Source: an uncultured Fodinibius sp.
GTDB lineage: Bacteria; Bacteroidota; Rhodothermia; Balneolales; Balneolaceae
NCBI GenBank assembly: GCA_913057775.1
Contig: CAJXOG010000003.1
Span: 124,001 to 188,000 of the forward strand
Direction of reading: 5' to 3'
DNA: 64,000 nt
The position numbers and the translations under genes were made by a program. Under the pieces are notes generated by a model that saw nothing but the letters and a program-made list of their open reading frames with translations, did not search any database and was not told where the DNA came from. This document shows, one piece after another, positions 8,871-56,602 of this stretch; position 1 is the stretch's first letter, and every line of letters begins with the position of its first letter.

Positions 8871-9647
8871 TCAATATTTGAAATAAGCCGCAGGATCTTG
8901 TTGATAAAAATCCTTGAGCTGGTTGTACAGTTTTGGATGTTTGCTTTTTAGCTCTTTTGGTTTTTCGAAAAACAGTTCTGTAACTACGGCAAAAAATTCA
9001 GCGGGATTCGTGGCACCATATTCATCAATAAGGGTCTGCTGGTTTTGTTCGATGGATTTGAGAAATTGTTGGTATTCGCTACCTATGATTCGGGCCCAGG
9101 ATAAAAAATGAGATTCCTCATAGTCCTGCTCGATCTGATCGGTTGCTCCGTATTCGTAATCGAGTTGATGGGCAAATTCGTGGAATACGAGGTTTTCGCC
9201 GTCGCGGATGTCGGAGGCCCCTTGCTGAACTTCATTCCAGGCTAAAATAACATAGCCATGCGACCACGCTTCGCCGTGACGTTGCTCAAACCCCTCCTCT
9301 ACAAAAATGCCATTATTTCGCTGTTTTACTTTGGCTACATATGTTTTGGGATATACAAGAACCGACCGTAAATCCTCATAAAAGTAGGAGAGATCTTCTG
9401 TTCCCAGCAGAAGTATGGAGGCTTGGGCAGCGATGCTGACTCGAATATCGTCTGTAATTTCAAGGCCGGCACACCCTTCAAAACGTTTCTCGTCCAGGAA
9501 AATTTGCGTTAACCCAACCAGCTTTTTCTGTAGATGAGCCGGTAAATGTTGGTAGTAGGGAACGTTTTTTTTTAGGCTTATAAGCTGGTCATCAGAAAAG
9601 CTTTTATTGAGCAGACGTTTTCGCCGCCACTTTTTAAACCCGAACAT
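8871..9647 (-). CDS. MtfA-like zinc peptidase (M90 family)
   Basis: 258 residues, matching MtfA. The zinc motif is HEFAHQLD with His156, Glu157 and His160; a downstream block (NPAEFFAVVTELFFEKPKEL) holds the third ligand Glu within FFAVVTE. Also typical are WRRKRLL at the start and VYPKTYV before the motif. In E. coli MtfA binds the repressor Mlc and derepresses ptsG, and it has aminopeptidase activity; no Mlc or PTS gene is in this window, so its target here is unknown. No signal peptide, hence cytoplasmic. It is followed by nothing on its strand until lemA, and lies 11 bp after smpB, probably in the same transcript. Confidence 0.92.
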   Translation of the reverse strand: MFGFKKWRRKRLLNKSFSDDQLISLKKNVPYYQHLPAHLQKKLVGLTQIFLDEKRFEGCAGLEITDDIRVSIAAQASILLLGTEDLSYFYEDLRSVLVYPKTYVAKVKQRNNGIFVEEGFEQRHGEAWSHGYVILAWNEVQQGASDIRDGENLVFHEFAHQLDYEYGATDQIEQDYEESHFLSWARIIGSEYQQFLKSIEQNQQTLIDEYGATNPAEFFAVVTELFFEKPKELKSKHPKLYNQLKDFYQQDPAAYFKY

Positions 9648-26812: not shown

Positions 26813-26920
26813 TCAGATAATCTTATTTATGGCTCGGGAATTGCATTCATTACTTAGCCGTACCTACCATGATAATTGATATTGATGAGTAGTGAGATAA
26901 GAGAGGCTCACTACTCAATA

Positions 26921-27697
26921 CTATTTTCCGCCGTTGGCTTGCAGATCGGTAATACAAGCTTCATCAAGTGAAGGTATTTCACCACTCAAGTTTTGAAAGA
27001 TATCACCTGTTCGTACTGAAGGTGCCATTAAACATTCATCTGTTGTGCAATGGGCACTGCCATCTGTTTTATGATCTGACTGGGTAGGTGTGCCATTTCC
27101 AACCAATCCCATGTTATGTCCGACTTCATGACGTAGAACGGTGCTTTCAACTTGTTCTTGGCTTGGATCTGTAGGACCAGATCCGCTTATATTGTTGATG
27201 GTTTCGCCAAAGAGAGCCATTGATGTGTTCCAATAAGCAAAACCCAATACATTAGAGTTTTCGTTAAACTCTCCATCAAGAACTACGATATAGGCGTGGA
27301 GTGTGTTGGTGCCTGCTTCGGTATAGTTATCCCGTTCTTCGTCTTCGATAGTTGTTACCATATCAGTGGAATATGGGCCGTCATTGCGCGCTGGAATTTC
27401 AGAGGTGTTGATAGTGATATCATTTTTATTTAGTCGTTCATTTAAAAACGATTCCAGATTGTTGATGGCTTCTTGAGTTGGTTCATAGCCCTCCATGTAA
27501 TCAAGCTCTACTTCCAGAGAAGAGTACTCCTCATCCCCGAGATATAATTCGGCTGATTCGCCCGGGCCTTGCTGACTGTTAAATTCTTCTTGTGGTGGCG
27601 GATCACCGGGATCAGTACTGGAGTCGGAACAGCTATTAATAGCAACTGCCAGTGAAAAACAAAGAATAAAAAGTGATAGACGTTTAAATACTTTCAT
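26921..27697 (-). CDS. Secreted metzincin-like lipoprotein, copy 1 (third ligand altered)
   Basis: 258 residues. MKVFKRLSLFILCFSLAVAI runs to lipobox INSC, so it is lipid-anchored outside the inner membrane. The zinc motif is RHEVGHNMGLVGNG: H-E-x-x-H-x-x-G is present but the third-ligand position holds Gly, with Asn next, where the paralogue has Asp. Three cysteines (HCTTDECLM and ACITDLQANGGK) are shared with copy 2 and probably form disulfides. An N-terminal domain (about 40-120) with PGESAELYLGDEEYSSLEVE is also shared. It probably is a secreted peptidase or a degenerate relative. It is downstream of copy 2 on the same strand (69 bp). Confidence 0.8.
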   Translation of the reverse strand: MKVFKRLSLFILCFSLAVAINSCSDSSTDPGDPPPQEEFNSQQGPGESAELYLGDEEYSSLEVELDYMEGYEPTQEAINNLESFLNERLNKNDITINTSEIPARNDGPYSTDMVTTIEDEERDNYTEAGTNTLHAYIVVLDGEFNENSNVLGFAYWNTSMALFGETINNISGSGPTDPSQEQVESTVLRHEVGHNMGLVGNGTPTQSDHKTDGSAHCTTDECLMAPSVRTGDIFQNLSGEIPSLDEACITDLQANGGK

Positions 27698-27766
27698 AAA
27701 AGGATACTTGTATAAAATTTGGTTTAAGTTGATTTCATTGACTCAAAATATTCATTAATAATGATA

Positions 27767-28552
27767 CTATTTCCCTCCGTTAGCTTGTAAATCAGCGATG
27801 CAATTGCCATCAAACGGAGTAATTTCTTCATCCCCAACAGTATTGCCGATCAGATCGGTGGTTTGCGTTGCATAGTACATCAGGCACTGATCATTATCAC
27901 AGTGGTTGCCATGTTCTTGATCCCGATGGGGTTCCTGCATTTCGGTACCCGAATTGGGAATATCAACAAGTCCGAAAAGATGCCCAAATTCATGTCGAAA
28001 TGAAATGGCTTCCACTCTATATCGGGAGATCGAGCTGGGTCCGCTGCTGGCTTCATCATAAGCAGGGCCAAAGAAAGCATTAGAGGTATTATAATAAGCA
28101 ATACCCATGAGTTGCCGCTCACTGTATTCACCATCGACAATCATAAAATAGGCTGCCAGGGTATCTCCTTCTGAAAAAGTAGAACGCTCTTCGGATTCAA
28201 TATTTCGAATATCATTGGCACTGTAAGAATTTTGGTTTCGGGATTCAATTTGAGTCGGTTCTTTGATCGTAATTGAATTTTTATGCAGTCGTTGTTCAAA
28301 AAATGCTTTCAAGCTGTCGAGGGCTTCTGCATTGGGTTCATAGCCTGGCATATAATCCACTTCTACAATCAGTTCTGTAAAATTTGAATCAGCCAGAAAG
28401 TCATTGGCAGAAGTCCCCGGATTTTGCACATGGGAATAGATCTGTTCAGGTTCCTCGTTTTCAGGACCTGTTGAATCCAGACAGGATTGGAAAATAAATG
28501 CGACAAAAATTGCTATAATTAATGTTGGTAAATATGATCCACTTCGATTCAT
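27767..28552 (-). CDS. Secreted metzincin-like lipoprotein, copy 2
   Basis: 261 residues from ATG 28552 (MNRSGSYLPT); a longer frame from 28645 would overlap the divergent cupin gene and put a long segment before the signal peptide, so I reject it. The signal peptide ends in lipobox FQSC. The zinc motif is RHEFGHLFGLVDIP, a complete H-E-x-x-H-x-x-G-x-x-D metzincin (snapalysin-like) pattern. Conserved with copy 1 are the FRHE/LRHE entry, HCDNDQCLMYY and the C-terminal NCIADLQANGGK. The identical last eight residues (LQANGGK plus the preceding D) show that the two genes arose by tandem duplication. Substrate unknown. Confidence 0.84.
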   Translation of the reverse strand: MNRSGSYLPTLIIAIFVAFIFQSCLDSTGPENEEPEQIYSHVQNPGTSANDFLADSNFTELIVEVDYMPGYEPNAEALDSLKAFFEQRLHKNSITIKEPTQIESRNQNSYSANDIRNIESEERSTFSEGDTLAAYFMIVDGEYSERQLMGIAYYNTSNAFFGPAYDEASSGPSSISRYRVEAISFRHEFGHLFGLVDIPNSGTEMQEPHRDQEHGNHCDNDQCLMYYATQTTDLIGNTVGDEEITPFDGNCIADLQANGGK

Positions 28553-54865: not shown

Positions 54866-56602
54866 CTACTTGATGAGCGTCATCTTTTTTGTGGTAACTT
54901 TACCATCAAGGATAATACGATAAAAATAAATCCCTGAAGCATAATTACGGCCGTCAAAGGTTTCTTTATAAATACCTTCAGTTTTTGAGCCATTAACAAG
55001 TGTGGCAACCTTGCGTCCCAGTACATCAAAGATTTCAAGTTGAACATCTTTCTGCTCAGGAATGCTATAGCGTATGGTCGTTTGTTCACGAAATGGATTG
55101 GGAAAATTCTGCTCTATACGCACCATCTGTGGATCGATTGACTGTATCCCCAAAGCGTATTTTGTTTGCTGTTGATAAGATCCGTTGGCTGCAACTATTC
55201 CCAGTTTTTCGATCTCATCCCAACTCCAATTGGTTTCGGAAAATACAGATTCTTGTTGGTTATTATATATGATAAGAGGTTCAACGCCTCCATCATTAAA
55301 AAAGGCCAGAACACCCATTCCTGCATGTGGGTCAAGCAATTCTGAAAGGTTAAATGCAATATTTCCCGGAAAAGGGGATGGAGCGCTTTCAAAGTATTTT
55401 GCCGAAAGAACATTGAGAGTATCAGCAGGTTGAGATACATCTCCGGTGAAGTTTTCACTGGTGTTGGGCGTCGGGTATAAAGCACGTTCCTCAAAGCCAA
55501 ATCCCTGATTGGCATTATTACCAGAGGCATAGTGCCAAAGTTGTGATTCGATATAATTTCGATTGAAGGAATCAGGTCCACCGAGCTGTGTTGTGATGGC
55601 ATCGACCAGAGAAATGAATGGATTATTTTTGATGACTTCCCAGACATCGACCCAAAACTGTGAGCCGAATTTTTCTTCAAAAAAGAGTGCCCAGGTGATT
55701 TCAGCATACGAACCGGGATAAAATCCGCCTGAAGGATTATTAAAAATAGAGTTTTCAGAGTTAATGTAGTTGTAATAGTCATTAACATTATCGTAAACGA
55801 CCTCTTCCATCAGGGTTGCATCCATCTCCAGCCAATTACCTGTTTCACCCTGCCATTCGTTGGCTTCGTACTGTACGGCATGTTTAAACTCGTGGGCAAC
55901 TGTCACCTTAATGGCACCAATTTGGTTTCCATCGGGATCATTATTGGGCGGAAATTCCTCAGAAAAATCATTTTCAATATCGATATAGGTAGTGCCATCT
56001 CCGGGTGCTACCGTTCGGCCATAAATATTTTCAAGATTTAGAATTTGTATTTCATAGGTTTGGCCTTGGGGAATAGGATCGGTGTATCCCAGTCGTTGAA
56101 CTTCGTGTTGATATGAGGAGTCAGCTGCAGCGGCTACTTCTTCTACGTAATCGGGTATCCCATCGCTGTCAGAGTCTTCGGGTGGAACTGCGTGGCTTCC
56201 CGAAGTTTCGTAATGAATGGTAAAGTTTCCATCCGGTGATTCGTAGGTTTCGGAAGCCTGTATAGAAGGCGAAGATAGTACTGATTTAATACGGTTTACA
56301 GTGGATGCGGAAAGCTCGGATCTATGCCGATAGAAGTCAGAGGTGGCCGGGGTACCGCATTTATGAGGATGATCAATGTTTATGATATCATCATCAGGCA
56401 GAGTCCCCTTTGCCTTGGAAGGGAAAAATTTATAAAGCACTTTTTGATCCAAATTTATATTTCCTTGCTGATAGGCATGATCAATTTTTTGGAACAAATT
56501 GACCTTTTGGGGTGTGGACCGCTCTTGCGATTTGGCAGTACTGATACCAAGAATTAATAAAAATGAGCTCAAAAAAAAGAGCTGAAGTAAATACTTAATC
56601 AA
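54866..56602 (-). CDS. Secreted metalloprotease-like protein with T9SS type A sorting domain
   Basis: 578 residues, starting at a TTG (56602) with signal peptide MIKYLLQLFFLSSFLLILGI. The zinc motif is TVAHEFKHAVQYEANEW, followed by a Glu in MEEVVYD, the arrangement of the MXAN_6640-type putative metalloproteases. The C-terminal 85 residues are a classic T9SS type A sorting domain: QNFPNPFREQTTIRYSIPE, then LEIFDVLGRKVATL, FYRIILDGKV and KKMTLIK at the end. It should be carried across the outer membrane by T9SS; the regulator PorX is encoded at 59287. Catalysis is expected but not shown. Confidence 0.9.
   Translation of the reverse strand: MIKYLLQLFFLSSFLLILGISTAKSQERSTPQKVNLFQKIDHAYQQGNINLDQKVLYKFFPSKAKGTLPDDDIINIDHPHKCGTPATSDFYRHRSELSASTVNRIKSVLSSPSIQASETYESPDGNFTIHYETSGSHAVPPEDSDSDGIPDYVEEVAAAADSSYQHEVQRLGYTDPIPQGQTYEIQILNLENIYGRTVAPGDGTTYIDIENDFSEEFPPNNDPDGNQIGAIKVTVAHEFKHAVQYEANEWQGETGNWLEMDATLMEEVVYDNVNDYYNYINSENSIFNNPSGGFYPGSYAEITWALFFEEKFGSQFWVDVWEVIKNNPFISLVDAITTQLGGPDSFNRNYIESQLWHYASGNNANQGFGFEERALYPTPNTSENFTGDVSQPADTLNVLSAKYFESAPSPFPGNIAFNLSELLDPHAGMGVLAFFNDGGVEPLIIYNNQQESVFSETNWSWDEIEKLGIVAANGSYQQQTKYALGIQSIDPQMVRIEQNFPNPFREQTTIRYSIPEQKDVQLEIFDVLGRKVATLVNGSKTEGIYKETFDGRNYASGIYFYRIILDGKVTTKKMTLIK

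Follow-up and report, generated by a model that had tools for sequence, protein, structure and literature searches.

Tandem lipoproteins of a Fodinibius genome are predicted to be archaemetzincin-like zinc proteases with a displaced third histidine ligand

Introduction

The 64,000-nucleotide stretch of Fodinibius DNA analyzed here (the window) carries two adjacent genes for lipoproteins with a metzincin-type domain, copy 1 and copy 2, which differ in the residue that directly follows the GLV of the active-site motif, Gly in the former and Asp in the latter. Does this difference separate a dead protein from its active partner, or are both copies enzymes that take their third metal ligand from further along the chain? 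The preliminary description of the locus had started from the premise that the third ligand of metzincins, a His or an Asp, lies exactly at this position, three residues after the motif Gly (Gly+3). It thus considered copy 1 a possible pseudoprotease, with the pair acting as enzyme and partner or inhibitor, and mentioned a ligand supplied by the loop as an alternative. The premise has a precedent, as Asp at Gly+3 is a zinc ligand in some metzincins (excerpt of PMC3427221). We compared the two proteins with their relatives, with profiles of known peptidase families, and with known structures to determine which reading the sequences support.

Results

Two diverged copies of the same lipoprotein gene. 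Both genes are on the minus strand, as are all coordinates given for them below, and are separated by 69 bases. Copy 2, the upstream one, is an open reading frame of 261 amino acids at 27767..28552, which an in-frame TTG would lengthen to 28645 in the list of open reading frames; copy 1, downstream, encodes 258 amino acids at 26921..27697. The products are identical at 108 of 259 positions (42%; BLASTP, E 4e-62), which together with their common motifs argues for duplication and against chance resemblance. Both were modeled with AlphaFold2 (mean pLDDT of 93.4 for copy 1 and 90.9 for copy 2). The signal of copy 1 points to the lipobox residue Cys23 (codon at 27629..27631) as the putative lipid-anchored residue, a Cys in 121 of 124 relatives and a gap in the other 3; its counterpart in copy 2 is C24. 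Each protein has the HExxHxxG metzincin motif, in the form HEVGHNMGLV in copy 1 (HEVGH with His190, Glu191, and His194, at 27116..27130) and HEFGHLFGLV in copy 2 (HEFGH with His187, Glu188, and His191, at 27980..27994, invariant in 63 alignment rows). Further along copy 1 come Gly200 (27098..27100), the supposed ligand position after GLV, then His209 (27071..27073), the block HCTTDECLM with His216, Cys217, Cys222, and Met224 (27026..27052), and Cys248 (26954..26956). The corresponding block of copy 2 is HCDNDQCLM (27878..27904), with His217, Cys218, Cys223, and Met225. The lipoprotein signals, the HE-x-GH-x2-GLV motif, the three common cysteines, the shared C terminus, the duplication, and the Gly/Asp difference had all been correctly described before, with two details to amend: the second block reads HC-x4-CLM in both proteins, and copy 2 ends in IADLQANGGK, not ITDLQANGGK.

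The C-terminal tail, L-x-A-N-G-G-K/R (residues 252 to 258 of copy 1 and 255 to 261 of copy 2), forms the very end of most relatives, with the glycines G256 and G257 present in 111 and 112 of 124, and is modeled with high confidence in copy 1. An inverted repeat of 18 nucleotides at 26879-26924 (83% complementary, 10 nucleotides between the arms) overlaps the stop codon of copy 1 and is a possible transcription end; a scan for promoters and terminators gave no more signals than shuffled sequences did. A search of the same genome at E <= 0.1 returned the two copies and one weak match (E 0.024), another lipoprotein. Elsewhere in the window, the product of the minus-strand gene at 54866-56602 has a Por_Secre_tail secretion domain along with an HEFKH motif and is possibly another secreted metalloprotease, and the gene at 8871-9647, also on the minus strand, encodes a Peptidase_M90 family protein.

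The residue after GLV varies freely. The residue that immediately follows GLV (or GLT, GLI) was counted without alignment, in preference to the position-200 column of the census described below, which depends on alignment. Among 177 of 178 sequences it is Asn in 109, Asp in 45, Gly in 18, Ala in 4, and Lys in 1. The variation extends to the closest relatives: Gly in 12 and Asp in 2 of the 14 copy-1 rows, and Asn in 9, Asp in 5, and Ala in 1 of the 15 copy-2 rows (clade support 100/99). The family thus does not keep a His or Asp directly at Gly+3, and the Gly of copy 1 is exchanged among orthologues, the outcome that the preliminary description had named as refuting its inference. Since Gly+3 varies freely, Asp is an unlikely ligand in copy 2, just as Gly cannot be one in copy 1, and from the sequences it is very unlikely that this position binds the metal in either copy. 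Moreover, His190, Glu191, His194, His216, and Met224 are all retained in the 14 copy-1 relatives. We reject a pseudoprotease through Gly200 on the basis of this free variation among orthologues.

Copies of the pair occur together or singly. In a sample of 12 draft genomes of the genus, both copies stand in tandem in 6, copy 1 is found alone in 5, and copy 2 alone in 1, although some of these absences may be gaps in the drafts; both are also present in G021, a genome from a different genus. It thus appears probable that one copy or the other can be lost, and this speaks against an obligate enzyme/inhibitor pair. Where dS was finite, dN/dS was 0.063 and 0.113 for copy 1 and 0.021 to 0.047 for copy 2. 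These values are rough, as saturation affected 4 of the 10 comparisons and several of the finite dS values were above 1; they indicate purifying selection on both copies. Altogether, a copy 2 completed by Asp at Gly+3 with copy 1 as its dead partner or inhibitor now seems hardly credible: the Gly/Asp difference is real and the ligand role of Asp has its precedent, but the Asn of most relatives, the swaps within each group, the single-copy genomes, and the intact active-site residues of copy 1 all speak against it. Nothing suggests that one window copy inhibits the other.

A Glu-to-Gln partner in a sister genus. A tandem of the supposed kind does exist in two other Balneolaceae genomes, G052 and G039, drafts of another genus that are 74% and 90% complete. 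In both, a copy with HQFGH precedes an intact HEFGH copy on the same strand. The HQFGH copy of G052 (L053) lies at 2182-2934 of contig C14 on the minus strand, and that of G039 (L057), cut by the contig end, runs from the start of contig C162 to about 465 on the plus strand. Each has Gln in place of the catalytic Glu and keeps the metal ligands and the other conserved census positions, which would be the expected look of a metal-binding but inactive partner. Searched against 92 genomes of the family Balneolaceae, the G052 copy matched the G039 copy first (56% over 146 residues) and then intact-type genes at 51% identity or less, as read in all newly found matches but G1108. It is 51% identical to its own neighbor versus 38 to 41% to the window copies, so the HQ pair looks like a separate duplication.

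Conservation across the family. Named homologous loci had been collected with the patterns HExGH[ILN][LMF]GLV and [VL]LG[IFV]AYxNTS. For the census, a hidden Markov model of the family alignment was run on every open frame of at least 60 residues in the collected loci, archaemetzincin loci apart. It gave 186 distinct matches, of which an unrelated open frame matching only model positions 1-63 (L249) was removed. Among the remaining 185, the catalytic motif is kept almost throughout (His190 in 183, Glu191 in 181, and His194 in 183), as are His209 (184), His216 (184), Cys217 (185), Cys222 (184), Met224 (184), Cys248 (184), and Asp251 (183). The exceptions are the two HQ copies, a degenerate gene (L054), two decayed fragments (L217 and L218), L276, which a stop cuts short, and L244, in which Asp251 is replaced by Val and His209 is shifted, with a His two residues earlier; in the smaller alignments G002 is the sole exception at His209 and likewise has a His nearby, at a distance of a few residues. 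The earlier sets of 124, 146, and 177 sequences had been selected by a pattern requiring HE and so left out the two HQ copies, a bias from which the census is free; L217 and L218 are counted in the census and left out of the sets of 146 and 177, the latter of which also leaves out L249.

The block [His/Tyr]C-x4-C-x-M has identical spacing in 146 of 146 relatives, while the stretch from Gly197 to the His216 position ranges in length from 17 to 35 residues in the same set, with variable spacing on both sides of His209. Exactly three cysteines follow the lipobox Cys in 113 of 124 sequences; being odd, this number fits metal binding better than disulfide pairing. The degenerate L054 (contig C32 of G085, minus strand) reads HSLGR, with Glu191, His194, and His216 changed to Ser, Arg, and Tyr, and retains His209 and all three cysteines. 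We found no further degenerate member among low scorers in 21 genomes and 14 further regions, where every family member read keeps HExxH.

Profiles and structures point to archaemetzincins. In a Pfam and NCBIfam scan, only Reprolysin_5 (PF13688, M12) attained its cut-off of 27 bits, for copy 2 alone (29.7 bits, versus 22.0 for copy 1). At E <= 0.1, Reprolysin_5 matched 47 and Reprolysin_3 43 of 63 members, the NCBIfam archmetzin model 55 (best E 1.5e-9), and the fragilysin model 25 (best E 8.9e-7). The archmetzin model (NF033823) gave the window proteins 17.4 and 17.9 bits against a cut-off of 145. PF07998 had no match in the Fodinibius genome at E <= 0.01; elsewhere in the phylum it was found in 44 of 296 genomes, 43 of them over the cut-off. 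Among 35 archaemetzincin loci fetched, 29 showed the motif, and these 29 are without an insertion before HC. Nine archaemetzincins (L159, L160, L162, L164, L165, L167, L171, L174, and L175) combine intact HCx4CxM and CxxC with lipoprotein-like N termini.

Compared by hhalign with 18 aligned archaemetzincins of the same phylum, the family scored 94.4% in local mode (E 8.9e-8) and 97.9% in global mode. In the alignment, His216-Cys217, Cys222, and Met224 fall on the archaemetzincin HC-x4-C-x-M, and the second Cys of CxxC is matched by Cys248; residues 200-215 face a gap and form an insertion relative to archaemetzincins. The contiguous M54 pattern HExxHxxGxxHCx4CxMx17CxxC is therefore interrupted in the family by the insertion before HC, and it lacks CxxC in all but one (G073, with a Cys at position 245) of 124 members; the four-Cys feature of the second M54 zinc is reduced to three conserved cysteines.

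Structural comparison of the models supports the metzincin fold: in the Foldseek and VIA searches they matched structures of archaemetzincins, fragilysin, venom proteases, and matrix metalloproteases (MMPs). The top Foldseek match of both models was the archaemetzincin 2x7m of Methanopyrus kandleri (TM-score by target of 0.70 and 0.69). Next came fragilysins, structures of the Bacteroides fragilis toxin with a related metzincin fold, which occupied most of ranks 2 to 26 for copy 1. VIA-align superposed the copy 1 model on 2x7m with Z 13.9 and an rmsd of 3.3 over 169 residues. Other archaemetzincins ranked 3, 4, and 5 (Z 12.3, 11.7, and 11.7), tied with venom proteases of up to Z 12.3, so that the archaemetzincin lead in this list comes from one structure. 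A sequence search of the PDB returned nothing for copy 2 and one implausible match (E 0.49) for copy 1. The best structural match and the clear profile match together indicate that the family, as modeled and aligned, has its closest relatives among the archaemetzincins, from which an insertion ahead of His-Cys sets it apart.

Discussion

We consider it likely that the two lipoproteins, probably exposed at the cell surface, are anchored zinc endopeptidases from an archaemetzincin-like family of Bacteroidota and Balneolota, both of them working, with an insertion-displaced His as third ligand (His216 in copy 1, His217 in copy 2) and a second, cysteine-based zinc site. In the proposed active site, the catalytic zinc would be held by His190, His194, and His216 (His187, His191, and His217 in copy 2), with Glu191 or Glu188 as the base and Met224 or Met225 as the Met-turn. 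An insertion of some 15 to 33 residues would have shifted the third ligand along the chain and so released Gly+3 from constraint. Leishmanolysin, with 62 residues inserted between the motif Gly and its third His, offers a precedent (excerpt of PMC4580569). The loop ligand, which the preliminary description had entertained for copy 1, is thus the alternative that the evidence favors, for both copies. With a displaced His as the most likely third ligand, neither copy looks dead. We propose that the duplication is old and that both paralogues have been retained as working enzymes, probably with differences in their substrate loops.

The choice between His216 and His209 rests on alignments and on one degenerate gene. 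The coordinates of the NCBIfam archmetzin model put His217 of copy 2 at the third-His column, as the profile-profile alignment does for His216 of copy 1, His216 keeps a constant distance from Met224, and L054 has lost His216 along with its catalytic residues and kept His209, all of which favors His216 as the ligand. When leucurolysin-A, a venom protease, is aligned by hidden Markov model (E 0.044), its third His is instead paired with His209. M12B proteases have a disulfide at the equivalent Cys pair. A reprolysin-like arrangement, with His209 as third catalytic ligand, a Cys217/Cys222 disulfide, and another role for His216, would agree with that alignment, with the Reprolysin_5 matches, and with a His209 conserved as strongly as His216; it appears unlikely in view of the archaemetzincin alignments, the variable spacing around His209, the odd number of cysteines, L054, and the score of copy 1 below the Reprolysin_5 cut-off. 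We therefore regard His216 as quite probably the third ligand, as far as alignments can tell.

With His216 as the displaced catalytic ligand, the remaining conserved residues can be accommodated. Archaemetzincins have the HC-x4-C-x-M block with the same spacing, their four cysteines hold a structural zinc directly beneath the catalytic zinc, and a related archaemetzincin with a mutated Cys proved unstable (excerpt of PMC3427221). Cys217, Cys222, and Cys248 would keep three quarters of this Cys4 site below the active site, and His209, contributed by the insertion, would be the best candidate for its fourth ligand, with Asp251 as the other candidate.

Could both proteins bind zinc without protease activity, as binding or sensing lipoproteins, or be latent? 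The HQxxH and degenerate members suggest that the fold can persist without catalysis, and CarG, a relative of archaemetzincins from Myxococcus, is described as non-catalytic (excerpt of PMC3427221). The retention of Glu191 in nearly all of the census argues against this reading, and so does the modeled fold of copy 1, which begins near residue 48 after a linker with no separate pro-domain seen; we judge it improbable. Among archaemetzincins themselves, activity is proven for AMZ-tk (excerpt of PMC4681839), and some are inactive on standard substrates (excerpt of PMC3427221).

More speculatively, these features could be joined in an evolutionary scenario, possible but rather doubtful, in which the insertion displaced the third His and rebuilt the Cys4 site as Cys3His with His209 as the new ligand, and tandem duplication at least once gave a retained HExxH/HQxxH pair that could be a protease and its regulator.

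Many Flavobacteriaceae carry the family (184 of 397 genomes); its occurrence is patchy among 291 genomes of another order (9) and among 394 drawn evenly from the phylum (55). Of 97 genomes searched, the Fodinibius genome included, 46 have it, and the 80 top-scoring loci kept out of 461 confirmed ones include named homologues in many Bacteroidota families. Such a distribution would fit an accessory nutritional or envelope protease better than a core function. A search for plasmid homologues at E 1e-5 returned none. Clustering of the open reading frames flanking the 80 named loci revealed no partner gene common across lineages among the 18 largest clusters and thus no neighbor that hints at a substrate; apart from family members, these clusters reflected only lineage synteny (13 of the 80 loci have RF3, and 12 a gene that we take to be a methyltransferase). 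Acidic residues outnumber basic ones in the stretch after the lipobox Cys in 120 of 143 sequences. In Capnocytophaga, residues after the Cys are linked to surface export (excerpt of PMC6414381), and by analogy the lipobox, acidic stretch, and protease fold together suggest a surface-anchored protease.

Our study revises a ligand assignment that was plausible but wrong and provides a common Bacteroidota lipoprotein protease family, of which we recognized no description in the open-license literature searched, with a structural relative, the archaemetzincins, and a predicted active site. The idea of an enzyme with an inactive partner or inhibitor finds no support in the window pair and a better place in the HQxxH partners of the sister genus.

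Comparison with known systems

Among named systems, the elastase FP0506 of Flavobacterium psychrophilum resembles the window proteins as a predicted surface lipoprotein metalloprotease of Bacteroidota, but its authors assign it to the gluzincins (HExxH and ExxA), not the metzincins (excerpt of PMC6414381), which rules it out as a relative. Leishmanolysin (M8), compared by the place of its insertion only, is likewise membrane-anchored (excerpt of PMC4580569); it differs in the length of that insertion and in its other domains and is absent among the matches listed. Reprolysins and adamalysins (M12B) share the metzincin fold, a C-x4-C-I/L-M near the Met-turn, and the model whose cut-off copy 2 passes, whereas the third ligand and the use of the cysteines differ in the favored alignment. 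The archaemetzincins (MEROPS M54, PF07998, NF033823) come closest, with HExxHxxG, His-Cys-x4-Cys-x-Met at the same spacing, and a last Cys near the C terminus. The window family departs from them by its insertion before the third His, which in archaemetzincins stands two residues from the Gly, by a Cys4 site cut to three cysteines with a conserved His and Asp, and by its lipid anchor and scores under the archaemetzincin family cut-offs.
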